A stretch of DNA of 64,000 nt from Alcaligenaceae bacterium (lineage in GTDB: Bacteria > Pseudomonadota > Gammaproteobacteria > Burkholderiales > Burkholderiaceae_B). A program made the position numbers and the translations under genes. A model generated the notes under the pieces. That model was not told the DNA's origin. It did not search any database and worked only from the letters and a program-made list of their open reading frames with translations. Each line of letters starts with the position of its first letter. Position 1 is the stretch's first letter. The stretch is taken from contig JAJUGV010000004.1 in NCBI GenBank assembly GCA_029265795.1, positions 1 to 64,000 on the forward strand, written 5' to 3'. Shown piece after piece: positions 42,428 through 56,363 of this stretch.

Positions 42428-43588
42428 ATGTTTACTGAAAGCGACGAATATCAGGATATCCGCGATGCGGTGCGGCAGCTGTGTCGCCAGTTCCCAGACG
42501 AATACTTCCGCCGCATAGACGAGCAAAGGGGCTATCCCGAAGAGTTCGTGAGCGCCCTGATGGAAGCGGGGTGGCTGTCGGCCATGATTCCCGAAGAGTA
42601 CGGCGGCACTGGCCTGGGGCTGACGGCGGCGTCGGTCATCATGGAAGAGATCAACCGTTCGGGCGGAAATGCCGGAGCCGTTCACGGTCAGATGTACAAC
42701 ATGGGTACGCTGCTGCGCAGCGGCAGTAAAGAGCAGAAAGAAAAATATCTGCCGGCCATCGCTGCAGGCAAACTGCGCATTCAGTCGATGGCGGTGACCG
42801 AACCCACGACGGGAACCGACACCACCAAGTTGAAGACGACGGCGGTAAAGAAGGGCGATCGTTACGTGGTTAACGGCCAGAAGGTCTGGATCTCGCGGGT
42901 ACAGCATTCCGACCTCATGATTCTGCTCGCGCGTACCACGCCGCTTTCTGAAGTGAAGAAAAAGTCCGAAGGGATGTCGATCTTTATTGTGGATCTGCGC
43001 GAGGCCGTCGGTAATGGATTGACGGTCCGCCCCATCCCCAATCTCGTGAATCACGAAACCAACGAGCTTTTCTTTGAAAACCTGGAAATCCCCGAAGAGA
43101 ATCTGATCGGCGAGGAGGGCAAGGGCTTCAAGTACATCTTGGAAGGCCTGAATGCAGAACGTACCTTGATCGCCGCTGAATGTATCGGTGATGGATATTG
43201 GTTCATCGAGCGTGCGCGCAACTATGCCAACGACCGTATCGTTTTTGACCGTCCGATCGGCATGAATCAGGGCGTGCAGTTCCCCATCGCTGATGCCTTT
43301 ATCGAGATCGAGGCCGCAAACTTAATGCGCTTCGAGGCGGCCCGCCGTTTCGACGCCCATAAAAGCTGTGGTGCCCAGGCAAACATGGCCAAATATTTGG
43401 CCGCCAAGGCCAGCTGGGAGGCGGCGAACGTCTGTATGCAGACGCACGGCGGTTTCGGTTTTGCCAACGAATACGATATTGAGCGTAAGTTCCGTGAAAC
43501 GCGTCTCTATCAGGTGGCGCCGATTTCCACCAACCTCATTTATTCCTATATTGCCGAGCACGTGCTCGGTTTGCCCCGATCATTCTGA
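42428..43588 (+). CDS. Acyl-CoA dehydrogenase family protein
   Basis: AVTEPTTGTDTTKLKTTA, QKVWISRVQHSD, MQTHGGFGFANEYDIERKFRETRLYQVAPISTNLI. Confidence 0.93.
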   Translation: MFTESDEYQDIRDAVRQLCRQFPDEYFRRIDEQRGYPEEFVSALMEAGWLSAMIPEEYGGTGLGLTAASVIMEEINRSGGNAGAVHGQMYNMGTLLRSGSKEQKEKYLPAIAAGKLRIQSMAVTEPTTGTDTTKLKTTAVKKGDRYVVNGQKVWISRVQHSDLMILLARTTPLSEVKKKSEGMSIFIVDLREAVGNGLTVRPIPNLVNHETNELFFENLEIPEENLIGEEGKGFKYILEGLNAERTLIAAECIGDGYWFIERARNYANDRIVFDRPIGMNQGVQFPIADAFIEIEAANLMRFEAARRFDAHKSCGAQANMAKYLAAKASWEAANVCMQTHGGFGFANEYDIERKFRETRLYQVAPISTNLIYSYIAEHVLGLPRSF

Positions 43589-43596
43589 GATCCGCC

Positions 43597-44778
43597 ATGT
43601 CACGACCCCTTGACGGCATTACTGTCATCACACTGGAACATGCCATCGCGGCGCCATTCTGCACACGGCAGCTGGCCGACCTGGGTGCGCGTGTCATCAA
43701 GATCGAGCGCCCCGGCGTGGGTGACTTCGCCCGTGGCTACGATGAACGCGTCAACGGCCTGTCTTCGCATTTCGTCTGGACCAACCGCTCCAAGGAAAGC
43801 CTTACGCTGGATTTGAAGCACCCCAATGCCAAGAAGGTACTGGCAAAGCTGCTGGAAGGGGCCGATGTTCTGGTGCAGAATCTGGCGCCCGGCGCCGCCG
43901 CTCGCCTTGGCCTGTCATACGACGATCTGCATACCACCTACCCCGGCCTGATTGTTTGCGGCATTTCCGGCTACGGCGAGGACGGCCCTTATCGCGACAA
44001 GAAAGCCTACGACCTGCTGATACAGAGCGAATCCGGTTTTCTTTCCGTCACGGGTACGCCGGATGAACCGGCCAAGGCGGGCTGTTCCATCGCTGATATC
44101 GCTGCCGGCATGTACGCCTACAGCAGTATCCTGGCGGCGTTGGTTCAACGCGGCAAGACCGGCAAGGGCGCCAATATTGAAGTCTCCATGTTAGAGAGCA
44201 TGGTGGAATGGATGGGCTTTCCTCTGTACTACGCTTTCGACGGTGCGCAGCCACCGCAGCGTGCCGGGGCGGCGCACGCCACCATCTTCCCGTACGGGCC
44301 CTTTCCGGCCGGCGACGGCATATCGGTCATGCTGGGTCTGCAAAACGAGCGCGAGTGGGCCGCGTTTTGCACGACGGTTCTTGAGCAACCTGAGCTGGCA
44401 AAAGACGAGCGCTTTTCGTCGAATTCGCGCCGAGTAGAAAACCGTGACACCCTGCGTGCGTTGATCATTGAGGCATTTTCCGGGCTCACCGCCGATCAGG
44501 TCGTACAGCGGCTTGAGCAAGCCCAGATCGCCAATGCACGGGTCAATGACATGCATGATGTCTGGAACCACCCGCAGCTGAAAGCTCGCCGCCGCTGGAG
44601 CTCCGTGCCGACCGCAAACGGTCCGGTGCCGGCTCTGCTGCCCCCGGGCAATAACAACAACTTTGCCCCGCGTATGGATGGAGTCCCCGCCCTAGGTGAA
44701 CACACCGAACTCATCCTGCAAGAACTAGGTTGGTCGGCACAGGCCATCACGGTTTTGCGTGAAGAAGGCGCGATCTGA
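43597..44778 (+). CDS. CaiB/BaiF (family III) CoA-transferase
   Basis: PLDGITVITLEHAIAAPFCTRQLADLGARVIKIERPGVGDFARGYD, SLTLDLKHPNAKKVL, ISGYGEDGPYRDKKAYDLLIQ. Confidence 0.93.
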   Translation: MSRPLDGITVITLEHAIAAPFCTRQLADLGARVIKIERPGVGDFARGYDERVNGLSSHFVWTNRSKESLTLDLKHPNAKKVLAKLLEGADVLVQNLAPGAAARLGLSYDDLHTTYPGLIVCGISGYGEDGPYRDKKAYDLLIQSESGFLSVTGTPDEPAKAGCSIADIAAGMYAYSSILAALVQRGKTGKGANIEVSMLESMVEWMGFPLYYAFDGAQPPQRAGAAHATIFPYGPFPAGDGISVMLGLQNEREWAAFCTTVLEQPELAKDERFSSNSRRVENRDTLRALIIEAFSGLTADQVVQRLEQAQIANARVNDMHDVWNHPQLKARRRWSSVPTANGPVPALLPPGNNNNFAPRMDGVPALGEHTELILQELGWSAQAITVLREEGAI

Positions 44779-44789
44779 CTCGTGCAGTG

Positions 44790-45335
44790 TCAGCGTTTGA
44801 TGTCGTTAACCTGGTTCAGGCCAAGCTCAAGCCTTTTGGTATAGAGCAGGTCCGAAGTATCGCGTGCCGATTGGCTGACATCGGCCGTCAGCCGTGCAGA
44901 ATCGGCAGCCGGAGCTGAAAAATAAAAATCAAAAACGACATCGCGCTGCGCAATGCGCCATTGCCCGTCGCGTCGCGTTACATGATCTAAATACCGGCCG
45001 ATGGAATGATTGTCTACGGCGGTGTCAGGGTGGGCCGGGTCATGGACACGCTGGTGGCATGAGAAGGCGCTTTCCACCAACGCACTATCCTGGTCAATGA
45101 ACTCGATGAGGATATTGGTGATCAGGTGGATGGAGCGCGAAATGTCGGCATGGCGCTTTTCCAGCGAGGAGATAAAACCGTCAATGTCGCCTTTATAGCT
45201 GCCATGGTTGTCCCACGCATCGGGATGGTAGGTGTCTCGGACCATTGCCCAGTCGCGGCGGTCTACGCCCCGCGCATAGCGATACAAGTTCTGTTTGATG
45301 TCGTGGATGTCGGCAAGCTGCTGAGGGCTTGGCAT
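44790..45335 (-). CDS. NTF2-like / SnoaL-like nuclear transport factor 2 family protein
   Basis: DIHDIKQNLYRYARGVDRRDWAMVRDTYHPDAWDNHGSYKGDIDGF typical of the SnoaL_4 group. Confidence 0.87.
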   Translation of the reverse strand: MPSPQQLADIHDIKQNLYRYARGVDRRDWAMVRDTYHPDAWDNHGSYKGDIDGFISSLEKRHADISRSIHLITNILIEFIDQDSALVESAFSCHQRVHDPAHPDTAVDNHSIGRYLDHVTRRDGQWRIAQRDVVFDFYFSAPAADSARLTADVSQSARDTSDLLYTKRLELGLNQVNDIKR

Positions 45336-45355: not shown

Positions 45356-45763
45356 TTAGTTCGCAGGCTCAAATAACGGCACCAGGTTGCCTTCACCATC
45401 GTCTTCGAAGAACACCTTGACTCGCATACCGATATGCAGCGCCTCAAAGTCTTCGGTGACAAGGTTCGACATCATGACCGGGCCTTCATCGAGTTTGACA
45501 TAGCCAATGGCATAGGGAATTTTGGCTCTGCGCATAATGGTAAAGCTGTAGATTTCGCCTTGCCCGCTTGCGGTTTCCCATTCCACCTTGTCTGAGAGAC
45601 AGCGGGGGCAGACGGGGCGAGGATACCAGTGGGGCTGATCGCAGCTGCGGCAGTACGGCAGCTTGAAGACGCCTTGGGCCGCGGCATCCACGAAGGGTTT
45701 CGAGCCGGGCTGCCGCGGTGTGGCGATCAGTTTGTGCCCTCCCTTACTATTCAAGACACTCAT
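45356..45763 (-). CDS. Zn-ribbon/OB-fold (DUF35) protein, partner of thiolase-like enzyme
   Basis: YCRSCDQPHWYPRPVCPRCLSDKVEWETASGQGEIYSFTIMRRA; start set at MSVLNSK. Confidence 0.88.
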   Translation of the reverse strand: MSVLNSKGGHKLIATPRQPGSKPFVDAAAQGVFKLPYCRSCDQPHWYPRPVCPRCLSDKVEWETASGQGEIYSFTIMRRAKIPYAIGYVKLDEGPVMMSNLVTEDFEALHIGMRVKVFFEDDGEGNLVPLFEPAN

Positions 45764-45767
45764 TGAA

Positions 45768-46937
45768 TCAGACCCTTTCCAAGATAAGAGTGGTGCTGCC
45801 GTGGCGTGTGCCAATGGAGCCGCCTGTACCCTGGGCGAGAGCCAGCGTACAGCCGGGTACTTGAACGGCGGGATGTGCTTCGCCACGCAGTTGTCGCACG
45901 GCCTCAATAATTTTTGTAATACCGCCACGGTTGGCAGGGTGGTTGTTGCACAGCCCGCCGCCGTCCGTATTGAATGGCAGCTTGCCCACACCGGAAATCA
46001 AGTTGCCGTCCATGACGAAGCGGCCGCCTTCCCCTTTTTTGCAGAAGCCGAGATCTTCGAGTTGCAGCAATACGGTGATGGTGAAACTGTCATAGATTGA
46101 AGCGTATTGGATGTCAGCAGGCGTCACGCCCGCTTCGGCGAAGGCAGCGGCACCCGACCATCTTGCGCCTGTGTAAGTTAGGTCGACATCGCCCGACATC
46201 TGCCCCTTGACGGCTTCGCCCGCGCCCAGCAATTGAATAACCGGACGCTTCAGTTCGCGGGCGATTTCGGGGCGTGCCACCAACAGGGCGCCGCCGCCGT
46301 CGGAGATGACACAGCAATCGAGCCGGTGCAGAGGATCCGCCACCATGGGCGACTCGAGCACTTGATCGACGGTCACTACGTCACGCAACATCGCTTGCGG
46401 GTTGTACTGGGCGTGATGTGAGGCGGCCACCTTAACCCACGCCAGTTGTTCGTTGGTGGTGCCGAACTCGTGCATATGGCGTTTGGCAGCCATGGCGTAC
46501 AGATTGGCGGTAGCCGGCCCGTAAGGCCGCTCCCACTCCAGATCAGGTTGATCCGGGTTACCCGCCCGAGGTGCAGTACCGGTCGCCATGCCACTGCTGC
46601 GCGGCCGGCCTGCCAGGGTGATGAGGGCAATATTGCATTTGCCCAACGCAATGGCCTGTGCTGCATGCGACACCAGGGCCAGGTAGGAACTGCCGCCGAT
46701 GTCAGTGGAATCAACATGGCGTACGCGCAGATCCATATAGTCGATCATGGACAAGGGCCCCAACCCGGGCGCGTCTCCTGAGCAGAAGTAGCCGTCGATG
46801 TCGTCCTTGCTAAGGCCGGCGTCTTCCAGTGCACCCCTTGCACATTCAGCATGCAATTGGGCAACGGATTTGTCGGGGGCGTGCCGGGTCGGGTGTTCAT
46901 ATGCGCCGACAATGCAGGCGCGTCCCTTGATGCTCAT
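45768..46937 (-). CDS. Thiolase-fold protein (acetyl-CoA acetyltransferase/lipid-transfer protein-like; Ltp2-type aldolase candidate)
   Basis: IVGAYEHPTRHAPDKSVAQLHAECARGALEDAGLSKDDIDGYF, thiolase fold spacing; nucleophilic Cys not evident (STDIGGSSYLALVSHA). Confidence 0.85.
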   Translation of the reverse strand: MSIKGRACIVGAYEHPTRHAPDKSVAQLHAECARGALEDAGLSKDDIDGYFCSGDAPGLGPLSMIDYMDLRVRHVDSTDIGGSSYLALVSHAAQAIALGKCNIALITLAGRPRSSGMATGTAPRAGNPDQPDLEWERPYGPATANLYAMAAKRHMHEFGTTNEQLAWVKVAASHHAQYNPQAMLRDVVTVDQVLESPMVADPLHRLDCCVISDGGGALLVARPEIARELKRPVIQLLGAGEAVKGQMSGDVDLTYTGARWSGAAAFAEAGVTPADIQYASIYDSFTITVLLQLEDLGFCKKGEGGRFVMDGNLISGVGKLPFNTDGGGLCNNHPANRGGITKIIEAVRQLRGEAHPAVQVPGCTLALAQGTGGSIGTRHGSTTLILERV

Positions 46938-46977: not shown

Positions 46978-47970
46978 TCATTGGGGCTCCATGCCTGCCG
47001 CTTTCATGGTTTCAGCCCAGCGCTGCCGCTCGGTTTCGATCAATTGCGCGAACTCTTCGGGTGAATTGCTGCGAACAGTGTAGGCGATATCCGCCATGCG
47101 TTTAATGACGTCTTCGTTCTTCAGAACAGTGCGAATCGCTTCGTTATAACGCGCCACAATTGCGGGATCCGTTCCTTTCGGCAAGAAGATGCCCGACCAG
47201 GTTTCCGCCTCGAACCCGTCGAATCCCAGTTCGTGCATCGTGGGCACATCGGGCAGCAAAGGATGGCGTTCTAGGGAAGTCACGGCAAGCACTTTGACCC
47301 TCCCTGCGTCGGCAAGCGCCTTGGAGCCGGGTACCGTATCGAAAGCCACTTGGATATCGCCGGCCAGCAGCGCCTGCACCACGGGCCCGTTGCCCTTATA
47401 GGGTACGTGCGTCATGGGGAGGCCGGTTTCCTGCTTGAAGTACTCAGTGATGAGGTGCAGTGAACCGCCTGCGCCCGAGGTGCCGTAGAACAGGGCCTCG
47501 GGGTTGGCTTTGCCGTATTCCACGAGCTCTTGTACGGAGTTGAAGGGAGTGTCGTTGTTGGCCACCAAGGTGTAGGGGCCGGCCACCATCTGAATCACCG
47601 GAATGAGGTCGGTACGTACGTCATAGCCGGGTTGCTTGATGGTGTTCGGATGCACCGCCACAACACCCGTGTTTAAAAGAATCGTGTGTCCGTCCGGCGC
47701 AGATCGAGCAACGTAGGCGGCGCCCAGTGCGCCCGCGACGCCGGGCTTGTTTTCCACGACGACAGGCTGCCCCAGCTCTTCGGCAAGGTGAGGTCCGATA
47801 ATGCGGCCTACCGGATCGGTTGAGCCGCCCGGTGCAAACGGAATGATCAACGAGATCGGGCGCGTAAACATCTTGGCATCCTCGGGCTTGGATGCCTGCG
47901 CCGTGGCGGCAGATAGGGACAGCGCGCCGGCACCCAGCAACAGCATCAGACGGGAAAACTTCATGGTCAT
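46978..47970 (-). CDS. Bug/TctC family tripartite tricarboxylate transporter substrate-binding protein
   Basis: Signal peptide; ISLIIPFAPGGSTDPVGRIIGPHLAEELGQPVVVENKPGVAGALGAAYVARSAPDGHTIL. Confidence 0.94.
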   Translation of the reverse strand: MTMKFSRLMLLLGAGALSLSAATAQASKPEDAKMFTRPISLIIPFAPGGSTDPVGRIIGPHLAEELGQPVVVENKPGVAGALGAAYVARSAPDGHTILLNTGVVAVHPNTIKQPGYDVRTDLIPVIQMVAGPYTLVANNDTPFNSVQELVEYGKANPEALFYGTSGAGGSLHLITEYFKQETGLPMTHVPYKGNGPVVQALLAGDIQVAFDTVPGSKALADAGRVKVLAVTSLERHPLLPDVPTMHELGFDGFEAETWSGIFLPKGTDPAIVARYNEAIRTVLKNEDVIKRMADIAYTVRSNSPEEFAQLIETERQRWAETMKAAGMEPQ

Positions 47971-48019: not shown

Positions 48020-48826
48020 TCAGGTATTCATGCTCTGCAAAGCATGCAGGGGTGAAATGGCGAGACCGCCGTCGACGAGCAGGTCTTGCCCGGTGACGAA
48101 CATCGATGCGTCGCTGGCCAGAAAGGCGACAGCGTCCGCAATATCAAAGGGGTTGCCGAAACGGCGCAGGGGCAGCATGGCCAGGCGCGCCGACACCTGC
48201 TGCGCGTTCTGATAATGGTTGTCGGACATGGGGGTACGCACCATGCCGGGGCTTACGCTGTTCGCCCGCACGCCGCGCGGGCCCCATTCGGCGGCCATTT
48301 GCCGGGTAAGGCCGCAGAGTGCGGCTTTGCTGGCGGCATACGCGCCCACCCGAGTGGGCATGCGTGCGCCGATGGACGCGACATTGACAATGGATCCGGA
48401 TGCCTGCTTCAGCATGGCTGGTGCCAGTGCCTTGGCACAGAGGAAAGCGGCCCTGACATTGACGCTGAATACGGCGTCCCAGTCCTCCAGCGGCAAGGCT
48501 TCCAATGGTGTGGGAGCCGTCTTGATGCCGGCGTTGTTCACTAAAACATCGCAGCGGCCGAACCGCTGCAGGACGTCGTCGGCCAGAGCTTCGACAGCGT
48601 CGGCCTGTGTGATGTCGCAGACTTTGGCGAGGGCGGTACACAGGCCGTTGGCAACCGTTACCGGTTCTATATCGACCATGACCACAGTCGCTCCCATACC
48701 GCAGAGGCGTTGAGAGATCGCCCGCCCCAGGCCGCCGGCAGCTCCGGTGACTACGGCCACGCGCCCGCTCAGGCAGTTGGCGTCAAAGGCAAGGACGGGA
48801 GAGGAATCACTGCGTTCAGACGTCAT
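48020..48826 (-). CDS. SDR family oxidoreductase
   Basis: VAVVTGAAGGLGRAISQRL, LVNNAGIKTAP, YAASKAALCGLTRQMAAEWGPRGVRANSVSPG. Confidence 0.93.
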   Translation of the reverse strand: MTSERSDSSPVLAFDANCLSGRVAVVTGAAGGLGRAISQRLCGMGATVVMVDIEPVTVANGLCTALAKVCDITQADAVEALADDVLQRFGRCDVLVNNAGIKTAPTPLEALPLEDWDAVFSVNVRAAFLCAKALAPAMLKQASGSIVNVASIGARMPTRVGAYAASKAALCGLTRQMAAEWGPRGVRANSVSPGMVRTPMSDNHYQNAQQVSARLAMLPLRRFGNPFDIADAVAFLASDASMFVTGQDLLVDGGLAISPLHALQSMNT

Positions 48827-49793
48827 CAGTCTGCTCCGGTTCAGCTAGGTTCGGGGGGTTGGCGGCTGCAGTGGACCGTTCGTGCCGCGTTTCAATACGA
48901 CTGAGGGCTTCTGCAAGGAAGTCGATAAAGACACGCACTTTCAGCGGCTGCATACGGCTGTCGCGAAACAGGGCGTACACGCCATGGTCGAAAGTGGTGT
49001 TAGTGAGTTCGTATTCCGGTAGAAGTCGTACCAGTCGGCCGGCCTGCAGATCGTCGGCGACGGCCCAGTCGGCGAGCAGGGCGATGCCTTGCCCGCTCAC
49101 GGCCGCCAGGCGCAGGACTTCACCATTATTGGAATGTACCGACCCTCGCACAGCGAGTTCTCGTTCTTCATTGCCCACCCGGTAGCGCCACGAAGTGGGT
49201 TCGCTGGCCAGTCGATAGGTCAGACAGTTGTGGCCGCGCTCGAGATCCTCTGGAACCTTGATGGGTTGGCGCGTGCTCAGGTAGTGTGGGCTAGCGACCA
49301 CAATGCGTTCACCCTCTGCCAGCTTGCGCGCGACATAGGAGGAGTCGCCAAGTGGTGCGAGCCGGAGGTCCACGTCGTAGTTCTGTTCGATGAGGTTGAC
49401 GGGCGTCTCGGACAGATGCAGATCAATGGTCATGTCCGGGTAGCGCGCAGAGAAGCTGCGTAGTAGTGGGGCGATCAGCCGTATCCCCAGTAACGTTCGC
49501 GAATGCACTCGTAAATGGCCCTCTGGCACATGCTTGATGTTGCGCACAAGGCTTTCAGTTTGTGCAACGTCGTCAAGCAAGCTTTCCATGCGGGAATAAA
49601 ACAGCAAACCCGCTTCCGTCGCCTTCAGTTCGCGACTATTACGGTCTATTAGTCGAATACCAAGCTCCTGTTCCAGCGCATTGATGCGACGGGAAACCGT
49701 GGCGGTGGAGAGGCCTAAAGCGCGTCCCGCCGCCGTGAGGCTTCCTTTTTGCACGGTCAGAACGAAGATACGGAACGTGTCGAACGCTTTCAT
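48816..49793 (-). CDS. LysR family transcriptional regulator
   Basis: MKAFDTFRIFVLTVQKGSLTAAGRALGLSTATVSRRINALEQELGIRLIDRNSRELKATEAG. Confidence 0.93.
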   Translation of the reverse strand: MKAFDTFRIFVLTVQKGSLTAAGRALGLSTATVSRRINALEQELGIRLIDRNSRELKATEAGLLFYSRMESLLDDVAQTESLVRNIKHVPEGHLRVHSRTLLGIRLIAPLLRSFSARYPDMTIDLHLSETPVNLIEQNYDVDLRLAPLGDSSYVARKLAEGERIVVASPHYLSTRQPIKVPEDLERGHNCLTYRLASEPTSWRYRVGNEERELAVRGSVHSNNGEVLRLAAVSGQGIALLADWAVADDLQAGRLVRLLPEYELTNTTFDHGVYALFRDSRMQPLKVRVFIDFLAEALSRIETRHERSTAAANPPNLAEPEQTDDV

Positions 49794-49926: not shown

Positions 49927-50057
49927 ACCTATTGTGCAGAGTATGAAGGTCTTGGGAGGTTTCTTGAAGCCTAGAATTTCGAGAAGTGCAGAATTGCCGC
50001 CCCACCCAGTGTCGGTGAGCGATCCTGAAAGACAGTAGCTACAACGTGGAGACGTAT

Positions 50058-51140
50058 ATGGAGCTCGATTTCGGCATTTTCATTCTGATGCAGCAACGCA
50101 ATCAGAACAAAACCGCGGCGCAAATCATCAGGGAGGCGGTGGAGCAGACGGAGGTGGCTGACCAGAACGGCTTTGCTGCAGCTTGGTATGCCGAGCACCA
50201 CTTTTCCAATTACGGTCTGTGTCCGTCCCCGCTGATGATGGCCGCTTATTGTGCCGGCCGTACCAAACAGATCAGAGTCGGTTCGGGGGTGGTTATCGCT
50301 CCGCTTTATACGCCGGCCCGGCTGATCGCCGAGATCGGTCTGGCCGACCAGCTTTCCGGCGGCCGTCTCAATTTGGGCATCGGTGGCGGCTACCAGCAGT
50401 TTGAGTTCGAGCGTTTCGGCGTCAGTCTGGAAAATGCAAAGGAGAAAACGCTGGAAATGCTCGACATGATCGAGCTGGCATTGACTCAGAAGAAGTTCGA
50501 GTACGACGGCGAATATTTCAATCAGCCGGTGACGGCAATCAGTACACGCCCGGCTCAGAGCCCGCTGCCTCCGGTGTGGATCGCCAGCGGTGATCCCTTG
50601 CTGATGCGCCGGGCATTGCGCTCCGACTATCACGTGTTCATTTCCGGGGGGCTGGGCGGCAGCAAACGGCTGGGCGGTTTTCGGGAATCCATCGACGCAT
50701 TAGCCACCAGCGAGGGCAAGGATCCAGCCAAGGCCAAGGTGGCAATGCTGCGTTTTGCCTATGCCAGCGATAACAAAGCCGAAGTTGAACACTATGTTGA
50801 TTGCGCCCGTTATCAGCAGCGTATCGCGGTCAGCCTGAAGCGTCGGACCGAATCGGTGGAAGACGATTACATGGTGACCGAGCAGCCTTATGACGATGAA
50901 TTGCCCTTCGAGAAACTGATGCGCAATCTGCCGGTCGGGTCGGTGGATACGGTGATTGAGCGGCTGCTGACGGATATTCGTGCTGTTCGTCCGGTGCATG
51001 TGGCGCTGCAGACCCAGGTGGGTGATTTCGATCACCAATTGATGCTCAAGCAGCTCGAACTTTGGAATCGCGAGATCATCCCGACGATTCGGCAAGAGCT
51101 GGCGCGCGACAAGGCGGCCTCTGCGGAGGTGCAAGCGTGA
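50058..51140 (+). CDS. LLM class flavin-dependent oxidoreductase (luciferase-like monooxygenase)
   Basis: MELDFGIFILMQQRNQNKTAAQIIREAVEQTEVADQNGFAAAWYAEHHFSNYGLCPSPLMMAAYCAGRTKQIRVGSGVVIAPLYTPARLIAEIGLADQLSGGRLNLGIGGGYQQFEFERFG. Confidence 0.93.
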   Translation: MELDFGIFILMQQRNQNKTAAQIIREAVEQTEVADQNGFAAAWYAEHHFSNYGLCPSPLMMAAYCAGRTKQIRVGSGVVIAPLYTPARLIAEIGLADQLSGGRLNLGIGGGYQQFEFERFGVSLENAKEKTLEMLDMIELALTQKKFEYDGEYFNQPVTAISTRPAQSPLPPVWIASGDPLLMRRALRSDYHVFISGGLGGSKRLGGFRESIDALATSEGKDPAKAKVAMLRFAYASDNKAEVEHYVDCARYQQRIAVSLKRRTESVEDDYMVTEQPYDDELPFEKLMRNLPVGSVDTVIERLLTDIRAVRPVHVALQTQVGDFDHQLMLKQLELWNREIIPTIRQELARDKAASAEVQA

Positions 51141-52348
51141 CGAGCGGCGTTGCGAAGGAAAACCGCAGGCCGCTCGAGGGCATCCGTGTTCTGGATGTCA
51201 GTCGCGTGCTTGCCGGCCCGTTCTGCGGGCAGATGTTGGCGGACATGGGGGCGGATGTCATCAAGGTCGAATCCCCGGAAGGCGACGAGAATCGTCAGTG
51301 GGCGCCCATTACTGAAGACGGCGAAAGTTGCAACTTCATGAGTGTGAACCGCGGCAAGCGTGGTATTTCGCTGAATCTTAAAGCGCCTGAAGGTCAGGAA
51401 GTGCTTTATGCCCTGCTCGAAAACACCGATGTCCTGCTGCACAGCTTTCTGCCCAGTCGTGCCCGCATGCTTGGTATAGAGGAAGTAGCGCTGCATCAGC
51501 GCTTTCCCAATCTGGTCATCTGCAGCGTTTCTGCATTTGGCGCGCGTGGGGATCTCGCGGACCGGCCCGGCTATGACGCCTTGTTCCAGGCGTTCTCCGG
51601 CATCATGTCCTTCACGGGCGAGCGCGACGGCGGTCCGGTGAGATCGGGTGTGTCCTTCGTCGATATGACGACCGGCATTCTCGCGTACTCGGGTGTCGTG
51701 ACCGCGTTGATGGGACGCGCCTTGACGCAGCGGGGCACGATTGTGCGGGCTTCGCTGCTGGAAACAGCTGTCTCTCTGCTGGGTTATCACGGCGTGGGCT
51801 GGCTGCAGACGGGTGCTTTACCTCGTCGTGAAGGGTCCGGCCTGTGGAGTCTGGTGCCTTACCAGGTGTTCCGTTGCCAGGATGGCGAAATTCTGACTGG
51901 CGCGCTTAATGACGGCACATGGCGCAAGCTGTGCCGGGCCGTGGGGCGGAGCGACCTGGAAAATTCCCCCGAACTGGCCACGAATGCGGGTCGGCTGGCA
52001 CAACGTGACGCCGTGATTGCCGAATTCACGCAAATCTTTGCGACGGATACCGTGGCAAACTGGATGCGTCGTTTGGAAGCCCAAGGGGTCCCGGTCGCGC
52101 CGTTGCACACCATCGCCGATGCACTGACTCATCCTCAAAGCCTCGCCAACGAAATGGTGGTTGAAGTAGACGGCGGCGATGGTAAGACCCTCAAACTGCT
52201 GGGTACCGGCTTCAAAGTGGGTGATGGGCCACAACATTCACCTCGGCGACCTCCTCGGTTGGGCGAGCACGCCGAAGAAATCCTAAGAGAAATAGCCGGC
52301 TTTGACACCGACCGTATCGAGGCACTGCGCAGCAAGGGAGTCATCTGA
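51137..52348 (+). CDS. CaiB/BaiF (family III) CoA-transferase
   Basis: GTG start overlapping upstream TGA; PLEGIRVLDVSRVLAGPFCGQMLADMGADVIKVESPEGDENRQW. Confidence 0.93.
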   Translation: MTSGVAKENRRPLEGIRVLDVSRVLAGPFCGQMLADMGADVIKVESPEGDENRQWAPITEDGESCNFMSVNRGKRGISLNLKAPEGQEVLYALLENTDVLLHSFLPSRARMLGIEEVALHQRFPNLVICSVSAFGARGDLADRPGYDALFQAFSGIMSFTGERDGGPVRSGVSFVDMTTGILAYSGVVTALMGRALTQRGTIVRASLLETAVSLLGYHGVGWLQTGALPRREGSGLWSLVPYQVFRCQDGEILTGALNDGTWRKLCRAVGRSDLENSPELATNAGRLAQRDAVIAEFTQIFATDTVANWMRRLEAQGVPVAPLHTIADALTHPQSLANEMVVEVDGGDGKTLKLLGTGFKVGDGPQHSPRRPPRLGEHAEEILREIAGFDTDRIEALRSKGVI

Positions 52349-52349
52349 C

Positions 52350-53132
52350 ATGGCGGGCGTGTCGATTCACATCACGCAGGGTGTCGTCACCTGCACGCTG
52401 GATAACGGGCAGCGTCGAAATGCTTTGACCGCCGGCATGTTGGCCACACTTATCGAGACGCTTAAGCAAGCTCAAACCGATAGCGCTCTGCGCGCGGTTG
52501 TCGTCCGTGGTGCAAATGGCACCTTTTGTTCAGGTCGTGATCTGAGTGAACTCGACGCACAAAGGGATCACCGCCCCTCGCCCGAAGACGCCATTGCCCC
52601 CGTTACGCAGCTCGCGCGGGCGATGCACGCCTGTCCCGTACCGACTCTTGCGGTAGTGGAAGGCAAAGCGGTCGGTCTGGGGGTCGCGCTGGCAAGCTGG
52701 TGCGACATGGTCATTGCTACTGATTCCGCGCTGTTTTCAATCCCGGAAGCACGCGCGGGCGTGCCGCCGACCTTTACTGCAGTGTCTCTGGCACAAACGC
52801 TTGGGCAGCGTCGGGCGCTGTCCCTATGTCTTACCGGACGCCCTTTGAGTGCGACGCAGGCCCAGTCCTTTGGTTTGGCGCATTTTGTGTTTCCCGATGC
52901 CGACTTCGAAGCGCAAGTGCAAAACTTAGTACAGGACCTGCTCAAAGGGGGCCCGAATGCGCAACGCCACTGCAAGGCGCTGCTTGGGCAAGTGGGAAGC
53001 GACGCTTTCGATGCCGCCATTCAGCTCGCACAGCGGGCCGCTATCGACGCGATGGGAAGTGCAGAGTCGCAGGAGGGCATTCAGGCTTTCAAGGAAAAGC
53101 GCCCGCCCGCTTGGTACAAGGGCGGACTTTGA
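52350..53132 (+). CDS. Enoyl-CoA hydratase/isomerase family protein
   Basis: Crotonase motifs: NGTFCSGRDLSEL, AVVEGKAVGLGVALASWCDMVIATDSALFSIPEARAGVPP. Confidence 0.92.
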   Translation: MAGVSIHITQGVVTCTLDNGQRRNALTAGMLATLIETLKQAQTDSALRAVVVRGANGTFCSGRDLSELDAQRDHRPSPEDAIAPVTQLARAMHACPVPTLAVVEGKAVGLGVALASWCDMVIATDSALFSIPEARAGVPPTFTAVSLAQTLGQRRALSLCLTGRPLSATQAQSFGLAHFVFPDADFEAQVQNLVQDLLKGGPNAQRHCKALLGQVGSDAFDAAIQLAQRAAIDAMGSAESQEGIQAFKEKRPPAWYKGGL

Positions 53133-53165
53133 ACAATTTGATGATCAAAACACTGGAGGTGGACC

Positions 53166-54110
53166 ATGGCTGCCGATAAAGGCCAGGACAAAGATATGAA
53201 TATGGCGGGCAAGGTAGCGGTGGTGACCGGAGCCGGCCGCGGCATTGGGCGGGAAGTTGCACTGACTCTCGCTCGCCGGGGGGTCAGCGTCGTCGTCAAC
53301 GATGTCGGTGCTTCACTGGACGGCCGCGAGGAAGGCGAAAGCCCCGCCGCCGAAGTTGTGCGCCTGATCACAGAAGAGGGTGGGCAGGCAGTCGCGAACC
53401 GGGCCAGCGTGGCGGAATGGGAATCTGCTGCGTCAATCGTTCAGCAGGCCATCGACTCCTTCGGTCGCATTGATTACGTGGTGAACAATGCGGGCATTCT
53501 GCGCGACAAAATCTTTCACCACATGGATCCCGCAGACTTCGAAGCCGTAGTGAAGGTGCATCTCTTCGGTTCGTTCTATGTGAGTCGGGCTGCCGCTCCG
53601 CATTTCCGTAAGCAGGAGAGCGGTGCGTTCGTACATATGACCTCGACGTCGGGTCTGATCGGCAGCATCGGCCAGGCCAATTACGCGTCGGCCAAGCTGG
53701 GCATTGTGGGCCTGTCGCGTTCACTGGCGTTGGAAATGTCCCGCTTCAATGTCAGGTCAAACTGCATTTCTCCAAGCGCTTTCAGTCGCATGATCGAGTC
53801 CATTCCCGGCGCTTCGCCCGAAGAACAGGCGCGCAATCTGGAGATGCGCCGCTCACGCACCCGACCTGAGCAAATTGCGCCGGTCGCCGCCTACTTACTG
53901 AGCGATGCCGCGAAACACATTAGCGGGCAGATCATCGGCGTGCGAGGCAACGAGTTGTACTTGTACAGTCAGCCTCGCCCGGTACGAATTCTTCAGAACA
54001 GCCAAGGTTGGGATCAGCAAAGCCTGACCGAGCAGGTGGGCGAAGGCTGGCGGTCTTCCTTCATCCCGCTAGAGCGCACACGCGATGTCTTTCCCTGGCA
54101 GGCCCAGTAG
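53166..54110 (+). CDS. SDR family oxidoreductase, MFE-2/17beta-HSD4-like
   Basis: KVAVVTGAGRGIGREVALTLARRGVSVVVNDVGASLDG, VNNAGILRDKIFHHMDPADFEAVVKVHLFGSFYVSRAA, YASAKLGIVGLS. Confidence 0.9.
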   Translation: MAADKGQDKDMNMAGKVAVVTGAGRGIGREVALTLARRGVSVVVNDVGASLDGREEGESPAAEVVRLITEEGGQAVANRASVAEWESAASIVQQAIDSFGRIDYVVNNAGILRDKIFHHMDPADFEAVVKVHLFGSFYVSRAAAPHFRKQESGAFVHMTSTSGLIGSIGQANYASAKLGIVGLSRSLALEMSRFNVRSNCISPSAFSRMIESIPGASPEEQARNLEMRRSRTRPEQIAPVAAYLLSDAAKHISGQIIGVRGNELYLYSQPRPVRILQNSQGWDQQSLTEQVGEGWRSSFIPLERTRDVFPWQAQ

Positions 54111-54127
54111 CTCGGCAGGAGTCCGTA

Positions 54128-55015
54128 GTGATCAAACGTGAAACGCTGATGAACTGGCCCTTTGACGAAAAGGTTCACGCTTATACCAAGCGGGATGCCA
54201 TGTTCTATGCCCTGAGCATCGGATTCGGCAGCGATCCAATGGATCCGACGCATTTGAACCATGTTCTGGAAGACAACACGCGTGTCTTTCCCACCATGGC
54301 GCTGGTACTGGCGCATCCCGGCCCCTGGACGGCGGATTCGGCTACCGGCGTCAACCGCAAGGGCGTGGTGCATGGCGAACAGCGCCTGGTGATTCATAAG
54401 CCCCTGCCGGCAGAGGGCACCGTGCGCTCACGCAATCGAGTCACCGCCGTGATCGACAAGGGCGAAGGGAAGGGCGCAGTGATCCACACCGAGCGCAATC
54501 TCCACGATGTGAAAACAGGTGAGTTGCTGGCAACCATCCAAGGAACTACTTTCTGCCGACGCGATGGGGGGTTTGATAAGGAGGGGGGCGGGGTCGAAGC
54601 ACCCGTCCGTCCGGAACCCCCGGCCCGGCCGGAGCGGCCCTGCGATGTATCTGTAAACATGCCCACGTCGGCGGGGGCCGCACTGCTGTATCGGCTCAAT
54701 GGGGATTACAACCCGATTCACTCGCATCCCGAGGCCGCCAAAGCTTCCGGGTTTGAACGTCCCATCACCCATGGTCTGCTGACGCTGGCGCTGGCTGCGC
54801 GGGCATTGGAAGCCGAGTGTGCACCCAGTTCGCTCATTGAGATCAATGCGCGCTTTTCGTCGACCATGGTGCCCGGGGAGACGCTCCATGTCGAGATCTG
54901 GCATGGGCGCGAAGGTGAGGTTTGGTTCCGGGGCCTTTGCAAGGAACGAGGCGTCGAGGTGCTGTCGAAAGGCTACGCACGGCTCGCTCACATTGAACAG
55001 GAAGCGGCATCATGA
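54128..55015 (+). CDS. MaoC family dehydratase (double hotdog, MFE-2 hydratase-like)
   Basis: GTG start; N-terminal VHAYTKRDAMFYALSIGFGSDPMDPTHLNHVLED; C-terminal YRLNGDYNPIHSHPEAAKASGFERPITHGLLT hydratase 2 motif. Confidence 0.9.
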   Translation: MIKRETLMNWPFDEKVHAYTKRDAMFYALSIGFGSDPMDPTHLNHVLEDNTRVFPTMALVLAHPGPWTADSATGVNRKGVVHGEQRLVIHKPLPAEGTVRSRNRVTAVIDKGEGKGAVIHTERNLHDVKTGELLATIQGTTFCRRDGGFDKEGGGVEAPVRPEPPARPERPCDVSVNMPTSAGAALLYRLNGDYNPIHSHPEAAKASGFERPITHGLLTLALAARALEAECAPSSLIEINARFSSTMVPGETLHVEIWHGREGEVWFRGLCKERGVEVLSKGYARLAHIEQEAAS

Positions 55016-55380
55016 AAGTCATTCGATTGCAAACTGCATTTCTGGTTTCCGCTGACATGGATGCCCAGAGCCGGTTCTACGAGCAGGCGTTGGGGCTCAA
55101 ACTCAAGTTCCGTGATGGTGATCGCTGGGCACAATACGATGCCAACGGCACCAGCATTGCTTTGGCCAGCCGCGAGGAGGCGCACCCCGCTACGCAAGGT
55201 GCGGTGCTGGTGTTCGAGGTCGAAAATTTCGACGGTGTGGCTGAGCACATCGAGCGACATGGCGGCCTGTGCCTAGGAGTACGCGACATGGGATCGCACG
55301 GTGCCGTGCTGTCGGCTAAGGACCCGAACGGCAATATCGTTCAGTTCTTTTGCCGGGCGGGGACGGAGCCAACGCGCTGA
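55012..55380 (+). CDS. VOC family protein (glyoxalase/bleomycin resistance/dioxygenase fold)
   Basis: FLVSADMDAQSRFYEQALGLKLKFRDGDRWAQYDANG, KDPNGNIVQFF; ATGA overlap with upstream gene. Confidence 0.9.
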   Translation: MKVIRLQTAFLVSADMDAQSRFYEQALGLKLKFRDGDRWAQYDANGTSIALASREEAHPATQGAVLVFEVENFDGVAEHIERHGGLCLGVRDMGSHGAVLSAKDPNGNIVQFFCRAGTEPTR

Positions 55381-55391
55381 AGGAGCACACT

Positions 55392-56363
55392 ATGCAAATC
55401 TGCAAGAACGACCCGCAAATCGCCGCCTTTGATCCTCGGGAGTTCCGACGGGCACTGGGAACCTTCCCTACAGGTGTGGCCATCATTACCACAGTCACCG
55501 CTGCGGGGGTGCCGGTAGGTCTCACCTGCAACTCCTTTAGCTCGGTGTCGCTGACTCCCCCGCTGGTGCTGTGGAGTCTGCGGCGCGAGAGCAGAAGTCT
55601 GCAGGCATTTCGGGAGTCCAGCCATTTTGCGATCAATATCTTGTCAAAAGGGCAGAGTGTATTGTCGTCGCGCTTTGCCAGCAGCAAGATCGCCGACAAG
55701 TTCGAAGGGGTGTCTTACACCGCGGGAGCCGGCGGAGCCCCCATTATTGATGGCTGCCTGGCCCGTTTTCACTGCCGCAATTTTGCTGAACATGAGGCCG
55801 GGGATCACATCATTTTCATCGGGCAGGTCGAAAGATTCGACATGACGGCGGATGTCGAGCCGCTGGTCTTCTATCAGGGGGATTACATGACCCTGGCCCA
55901 ATCACTGAGCGAGATCGGCGCGAACGAAAATATTTCGATTCCCGAACTCATTGACGCTCGGGCACGTATTTACAGAAGCCTGTTGGAGCTGGCGTGCGTG
56001 CATGGCAGCGAAGAAGACTTCGACGCGATCGAGCGGCACCTGGTGGCCATGGAAGTGCTTACGAAACGCGAGGCAATGGTAGACCGGGCTCATGCCGCAC
56101 TACACTTTTTCAAGTTGATCACGAAAGCGGCCCACAACGAACCGCTGACCGTGGTGGCCCAATCGCTGGATACGCTCATGCATCAGGCGGTAAACGACCA
56201 GGCCATGACCATGAGCTGGCCGTCAATGTTTCAGCCGGAACTCATTCCCTTGCGTCAGCGTATGCTCGAGGCCATGCGTGCCCGAGATGCCGGCGCCGCC
56301 ATTGAGGGGCTGGATGAATACTTTATGCAGGTGCGGCGTTATCAGAATGCTCGCACCCGCTGA
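55392..56363 (+). CDS. Flavin reductase family protein with C-terminal FCD (GntR effector domain)-like extension
   Basis: N-terminal FRRALGTFPTGVAIITTVTAAGVPVGLTCNSFSSVSLTPPLVLWSLRRESRSLQAFRESSHFAINIL; C-terminal about 150 aa helical, LIDARARIYRSLLELACVHGSEEDFDAIERHLVAMEVLTKREAMVDRAHAALHFFKLITKAAHNEPL. Confidence 0.85.
   Translation: MQICKNDPQIAAFDPREFRRALGTFPTGVAIITTVTAAGVPVGLTCNSFSSVSLTPPLVLWSLRRESRSLQAFRESSHFAINILSKGQSVLSSRFASSKIADKFEGVSYTAGAGGAPIIDGCLARFHCRNFAEHEAGDHIIFIGQVERFDMTADVEPLVFYQGDYMTLAQSLSEIGANENISIPELIDARARIYRSLLELACVHGSEEDFDAIERHLVAMEVLTKREAMVDRAHAALHFFKLITKAAHNEPLTVVAQSLDTLMHQAVNDQAMTMSWPSMFQPELIPLRQRMLEAMRARDAGAAIEGLDEYFMQVRRYQNARTR

Follow-up and report, generated by a model that had tools for sequence, protein, structure and literature searches.

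A thiolase-fold/DUF35 gene pair from an Alcaligenaceae bacterium probably belongs to the DUF35-dependent retro-aldolases, within an uncharacterised clade for which a distinct catalytic pair is predicted

The closest described systems are thiolase-fold retro-aldolases that have a DUF35 partner. TcLtp2, with ChsH2, is a cholesterol side-chain aldolase (6ok1), and CtSal, with Shy, is a bile-acid side-chain aldolase (9myr, PMC12329534). A glycine takes the place of the thiolase nucleophilic cysteine in both; the authors of the Sal paper equate CtSal Gly89 with that residue, and a glycine in place of the cysteine is said to exclude thiolysis (PMC12329534). Tyr294 of TcLtp2 and Tyr302 of CtSal are catalytic, the C304S variant of Sal is inactive, and the DUF35 partners differ in their zinc sites, ChsH2 having a canonical four-Cys ribbon in contrast to the C3H1 site of Shy (PMC12329534). 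For Ltp2-type aldolase activity, the DUF35 protein is indispensable (PMC12502768). A non-steroid substrate is cut in this way during ibuprofen degradation, where a retro-aldolase encoded by the ipfDE gene pair cleaves the ibuprofen dihydrodiol (PMC9195938). SCP2-type thiolases (6hsj) and BbsAB share the fold with these proteins, and BbsAB has a DUF35 partner as well, but they carry a nucleophilic Cys, an HD[C/A]F motif and a GHP-type His.

The pair analysed here lies in a 64-kb window (the whole stretch of 64,000 nucleotides under study) that forms part of a draft genome of 3.35 Mb in 185 contigs, ~94.6% complete by estimate. Its thiolase-fold ORF (45768-46937, minus strand; 389 aa), a candidate retro-aldolase catalytic subunit, carries a thiolase-type annotation and reads VDSTDIGGSSYLALVSHAAQ. 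The protein is a member of NCBIfam NF006010/PRK08142, a subfamily without an assigned function, scoring 743.6 bits over residues 1-388 against a curated cut-off of 462, and Pfam Thiolase_C_1 matches it with 171 bits. Between its stop (45768) and the ATG (45763) of a stand-alone DUF35 gene (45356-45763, minus strand; 135 aa) there are 4 nt. The encoded protein, the predicted partner subunit, combines a zinc ribbon and an OB fold (zf-ChsH2, 46.3 bits; OB_ChsH2_C, 68.8 bits), and the ribbon has the canonical four-Cys form, C38-x2-C41-x10-C52-x2-C55 (45599-45652, minus strand). The original prediction had thus named the right downstream neighbour, although it gave the spacing as 5 bp. Among 92 loci of relatives, a DUF35 gene lies directly downstream of the thiolase-fold gene in ~90, a count made up of 85 strict cases and 5 in which the DUF35 match runs a little way into the end of the thiolase-fold gene or had been attributed to a second copy within the locus; the partner is absent only from L052 and L068. 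Two more thiolase-fold/DUF35 pairs occur in the same genome (L001, 158-1345 on contig C124; L003, 1329-2501 on C127), with thiolase-fold proteins 41% and 43% identical to that of the window, Gly at the Cys position, and YDSF/His and YDAF/His, respectively. A search in phages returned no match, an open-access literature search on PRK08142 or 4u4e found nothing, and an RB-TnSeq paper held no fitness lead attributable to the window thiolase-fold gene.

It had been proposed by eye that Gly replaces the nucleophilic Cys of SCP2-type thiolases in this protein, and alignment with 6hsj, BbsB, two archaeal thiolases, TcLtp2 and CtSal bears this out. Gly82 (codon 46692-46694, minus strand) falls on the nucleophile Cys of SCP2-thiolase 6hsj (NNNCSTGSTAL) and on CtSal Gly89. 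The same alignments place no alternative Cys at the nucleophile position, and a one-residue shift in register would bring Ser83 there, again not a Cys. Since 84 of 85 relatives have Gly at this place, the residue is neither a sequencing error nor an isolated mutation. Ser83 itself, replaced by Cys in 14 of 110 Gly-type rows, was considered as a nucleophile and rejected: it is Gly82 that aligns with the thiolase Cys and with CtSal Gly89, and position 83 varies among Ser, Cys and Ala inside an otherwise conserved clade. The only sampled sequence with neither Gly nor Cys at the nucleophile place is a thiolase-fold protein at locus L106 (1492-2727), which has Ser there together with HDAF/His.

Further along the protein, a YDSF motif (Tyr282-Asp-Ser284-Phe285; 46083-46094, minus strand) stands in place of the HDCF motif that holds the second catalytic Cys of SCP2-type thiolases; Tyr is found in 85/85 relatives and Ser in 83/85. 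Tyr282 aligns with the catalytic bases Tyr294 of Ltp2 and Tyr302 of Sal, where thiolases have His, and Ser284 aligns with CtSal Cys304 and Ltp2 His296. The GHP-type catalytic His of thiolases is retained as His333, within NNHPANRGG (codon 45939-45941, minus strand; His in 83/85 relatives), and aligns with Ltp2 Tyr344 and Sal Gln352; it is a candidate proton donor. The window protein keeps one catalytic feature of SCP2-type thiolases, lacks their nucleophilic Cys, and has what Ltp2, Sal and IpfD share: Gly at the Cys position, a catalytic-type Tyr in YD.F, and an adjacent DUF35 gene or domain.

These substitutions go together across the superfamily. In an alignment of 82 sequences, all 61 with Gly82 have Tyr282, as part of a YD[S/A/C/H]F-like motif, and all 21 that carry Cys or Ser at 82 have His at 282. 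A maximum-likelihood tree of 80 sequences, from which three motif stretches had been removed, separates the Gly/Tyr and Cys(Ser)/His groups at 100/100, and a repeat by quick search with IpfD added gave the split an SH-aLRT of 100. On the Gly/Tyr side are TcLtp2, CtSal and IpfD, that is, all three enzymes with retro-aldolase evidence; on the opposite side are all reference thiolases (SCP2-thiolase, the benzoylsuccinyl-CoA thiolase BbsB and archaeal thiolases). Because the Gly/Tyr pattern is clustered on the tree, the covariation amounts to approximately one ancient change and not to 82 independent ones. Together with 4u4e and PRK06158, the window protein falls in a clade of 50 rows (100/97); every member has His at position 333 and either Ser or Ala at 284, and we found none that has been characterised. 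The PRK08142 part of this clade comprises 35 rows (100/100) from proteobacteria, actinobacteria and haloarchaea, and it can therefore use neither the Tyr/Tyr pair of Ltp2 nor the Tyr/Cys pair of Sal.

Comparison of folds points in the same direction. A Foldseek search against the PDB ranked 4u4e first, followed by Sal (9myr), Ltp2 (6ok1) and then Cys thiolases, so that the structure prediction called for by the original prediction puts both aldolases ahead of the Cys thiolases, just after an uncharacterised protein. The AlphaFold2 monomer model of the thiolase-fold protein has a mean pLDDT of 81.7 and a pTM of 0.86, with low-confidence stretches at 113-139 and 326-336; the latter is the active-site loop that holds His333, the geometry of which is therefore unproven. 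The top-ranked structure, 4u4e, is a 'putative thiolase' from Sphaerobacter thermophilus whose function, like that of PRK06158 and PRK08142, is unassigned. It is 42% identical to the window protein in the fold search and resembles it in having Gly at the nucleophile place, YDSF and His at 333, but it belongs to a sister clade and reads SYTHPGMY where the window protein reads CNNHPANRGG.

The window pair also differs from the described aldolases. Ltp2 has YDHF and a second tyrosine, Tyr344, where the window protein has Ser284 and His333, and the window DUF35 protein, four-Cys like ChsH2, is unfused to MaoC; against the Ltp2 model PRK07855 the window protein scores 219.6 bits, with a cut-off of 469. 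The description of the pair as Ltp2-like holds for the Cys-to-Gly replacement, the conserved DUF35 gene and the position, together with Ltp2, Sal and IpfD, on one side of a branch with full support, but does not extend to Ltp2 itself, from which the pair is set apart by this score and by its own Tyr/Ser/His set. Sal has YDCY with an essential Cys304, and Gln352, in contrast to YDSF with Ser284 and Phe285, and His333; Shy is fused to a hydratase (MaoC) and has a C3H1 zinc site, whereas the window DUF35 is stand-alone with Cx2Cx10Cx2C. Given the inactivity of Sal C304S, Ser284 is no simple substitute for Cys304.

A described non-steroid system is encoded on pIBU218, where the IpfD candidate gene lies between genes for dioxygenase subunits and a DUF35 gene with a CoA ligase gene, in agreement with the order ipfABDEF; its naming as ipfD is based on this order and on the known make-up of the cluster, not on a record label. 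IpfD-IpfE resembles the window pair in its Gly/YD.F pattern and adjacent stand-alone DUF35 gene, but IpfD has Glu-Gly in place of Gly-Gly, YDAF, and Tyr at the 333 position, and it groups with a separate 52% relative. Its Ala at the 284 place hints that a functional residue there can be dispensed with in some cases, provided that the one at 333 is able to act. A 52% relative of IpfD, from an Acidocella MAG (L042, 10410-11585), has a DUF35 neighbour and lies a few kb from a PRK08142 pair. A second pair on pIBU218 (L165, 3498-7116), 58% identical to TcLtp2 with YDHF/Tyr, adjoins CoA-transferase and enoyl-CoA hydratase genes. A further thiolase-fold/DUF35 pair of the Gly type, in which YDDF is combined with Gln at 333, immediately follows tfdA and a gene for an acyl-CoA synthetase on a Cupriavidus oxalaticus IncP plasmid (2,4-D; L164, 2483-4089).

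With gaps of at most ~50 nt, the minus-strand genes for LysR, SDR, TctC, thiolase-fold, DUF35 and SnoaL proteins could form one transcription unit. The putative first gene of this operon encodes a LysR regulator (48816-49793; Pfam LysR_substrate) and overlaps the start of an SDR dehydrogenase gene (48020-48826; adh_short_C2, 218 bits); a TctC-type solute-binding protein gene (46978-47970; TctC, 231.9 bits) precedes the pair by 40 nt, and a gene for a SnoaL_4-fold protein (44790-45335; SnoaL_4, 77 bits) lies 20 nt past the DUF35 gene. The SnoaL_4-fold protein weakly resembles the beta subunits of ring-hydroxylating dioxygenases and is ruled out as a conserved partner, no homolog being present at the 92 loci of the relatives. 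On the plus strand are an acyl-CoA dehydrogenase (42428-43588; Acyl-CoA_dh), a candidate for the step before the pair, and a class III CoA-transferase (43597-44778; CoA_transf_3, 377 bits), a candidate for substrate activation. A second plus-strand group (50046-55015) encodes an LLM oxidoreductase, another CoA-transferase, an enoyl-CoA hydratase, an SDR resembling the dehydrogenase part of MFE-2 (53166-54110; best NCBIfam match PRK07791, below cut-off) and an MFE-2 hydratase-2/MaoC protein (54107-55015; MaoC, 83 bits; MFE-2_hydrat-2_N, 69 bits), a candidate maker of beta-hydroxyacyl-CoA. The window thus has neighbours able to produce such a substrate (acyl-CoA dehydrogenase, MaoC and enoyl-CoA hydratase). 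In the relatives, the neighbouring genes are likewise catabolic, encoding acyl-CoA dehydrogenases (some in adjacent pairs), hydratases, CoA ligases or transferases, TctC and SDR proteins. Beyond these genes, the window encodes a protein that combines a flavin-reductase domain with an FCD domain (GntR-type effector) and lacks a DNA-binding domain (55350-56363, plus strand), next to an FMN oxidoreductase gene.

What is directly observed is which residues stand in the active site and how well they are conserved, where the protein falls on the tree, what fold it has and which gene it is paired with; from this we infer a reaction, roles for Tyr282 and His333, and a substrate class. On balance, we favour the reading that the window pair is a DUF35-dependent beta-hydroxyacyl-CoA retro-aldolase that acts through a Tyr282/His333 pair, probably on a substrate other than a steroid. 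This substrate, probably a branched or ring-bearing acid, would be activated by a CoA-transferase and desaturated by an acyl-CoA dehydrogenase before a MaoC/crotonase enzyme adds water. The pair would then cut the beta-hydroxyacyl-CoA into a ketone or aldehyde and a short acyl-CoA (acetyl- or propionyl-CoA) without forming a covalent acyl-enzyme. Tyr282 of YDSF is predicted to act as the base that removes the beta-hydroxyl proton, after which the C-alpha/C-beta bond would break; the acid that reprotonates the enolate would be His333, retained from thiolases where Ltp2 has Tyr344. Gly82 may provide room for the beta-hydroxyl where thiolases carry their nucleophilic Cys. As Sal requires Cys304 and Ltp2 a second Tyr, the acid step proposed for the window protein is a new assumption.

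If the neighbouring SDR is a beta-hydroxyacyl-CoA dehydrogenase, the pair might instead meet a beta-ketoacyl-CoA and cleave it by a Cys-independent retro-Claisen reaction, with water or CoA as nucleophile and Tyr282/His333 in acid-base roles. PRK07791/MFE-2-like SDRs do occur near the pair in many loci, sometimes with an MFE-2 hydratase; an SDR like that at 53166-54110 is on the same strand and within 1.5 kb of the pair in 15 loci, the window has both SDR and hydratase genes (53166-55015), and the thiolase His is retained. No nucleophile is evident for such a reaction, however, the thiolase His282 of HDCF is replaced by the tyrosine of the retro-aldolases, and the characterised Gly/Tyr relatives perform retro-aldol cleavage, so that we consider it unlikely. 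The SDR might just as well have the ketone or aldehyde product of retro-aldol cleavage as its substrate, or serve a different turn of the pathway. Our confidence in the retro-aldolase reading is nevertheless kept moderate because the SDR neighbours could supply beta-keto substrates. Retro-aldol cleavage rather than thiolysis, as originally predicted, is the best reading of the residues and the side of the tree for what is a deduced activity, while the adjacent SDR leaves room for a beta-keto substrate.

In another reading, the nucleophile has moved to Cys330 and the protein is a thiolase or acyltransferase. Cys330 (codon 45948-45950, minus strand), three residues before His333, is Cys in 81 of 85 close relatives and in 95 of 110 Gly-type rows and is replaced outside the clade; but the nearest clade, with 4u4e, has Ser there alongside the same Gly/Tyr/His set, the loop is unresolved in the AlphaFold2 model, and we know of no thiolase-fold enzyme that uses this position as nucleophile, which makes this reading quite improbable. 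We give similarly little credence to operation in the synthetic direction, as an aldol or Claisen-type condensation serving biosynthesis rather than breakdown: PhlABC and the HMG-CoA synthase complex show that synthetic enzymes can have DUF35 partners too (PMC12329534), but the neighbours of the pair are catabolic (TctC, CoA-transferase, acyl-CoA ligase, acyl-CoA dehydrogenase and hydratases). That the pair cleaves steroid side chains, as Ltp2 or Sal proper, is extremely improbable despite the common fold, partner and Gly/Tyr pattern, given the score far under the PRK07855 cut-off, the different catalytic pair and the separate clade; a search for a KshA-type ring hydroxylase found none in the genome, which, for a single marker in an assembly 94.6% complete, is weak evidence.

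The retro-aldolase reading has implications beyond this locus. The window pair is likely a member of the DUF35-dependent thiolase-fold retro-aldolase group, within an uncharacterised clade and with a predicted catalytic pair of its own. Members of the PRK08142/PRK06158/4u4e clade occur in proteobacteria, actinobacteria, Sphaerobacter and haloarchaea and are annotated as thiolases or acetyl-CoA acetyltransferases, and we see an even chance that the clade as a whole consists of non-steroid DUF35-dependent retro-aldolases that employ a Tyr base and the retained thiolase His as acid, unlike Ltp2 (Tyr/Tyr) and Sal (Tyr/Cys). The catalytic pair of the PRK08142/PRK06158 family may not yet have been described and, if the proposal is true, would be a third way to build an acid-base pair on one scaffold. 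Enzymes of this kind would also be candidate aldolase catalysts, one relative of which (4u4e) already has a crystal structure. A widespread bacterial and haloarchaeal family is probably misnamed: hundreds of genes named as acetyl-CoA acetyltransferases or thiolases would perform another reaction, and breakdown pathways predicted from them would be wrong at the cleavage step. Thiolase-fold retro-aldolases would then reach beyond steroids and ibuprofen, into common soil bacteria and haloarchaea.
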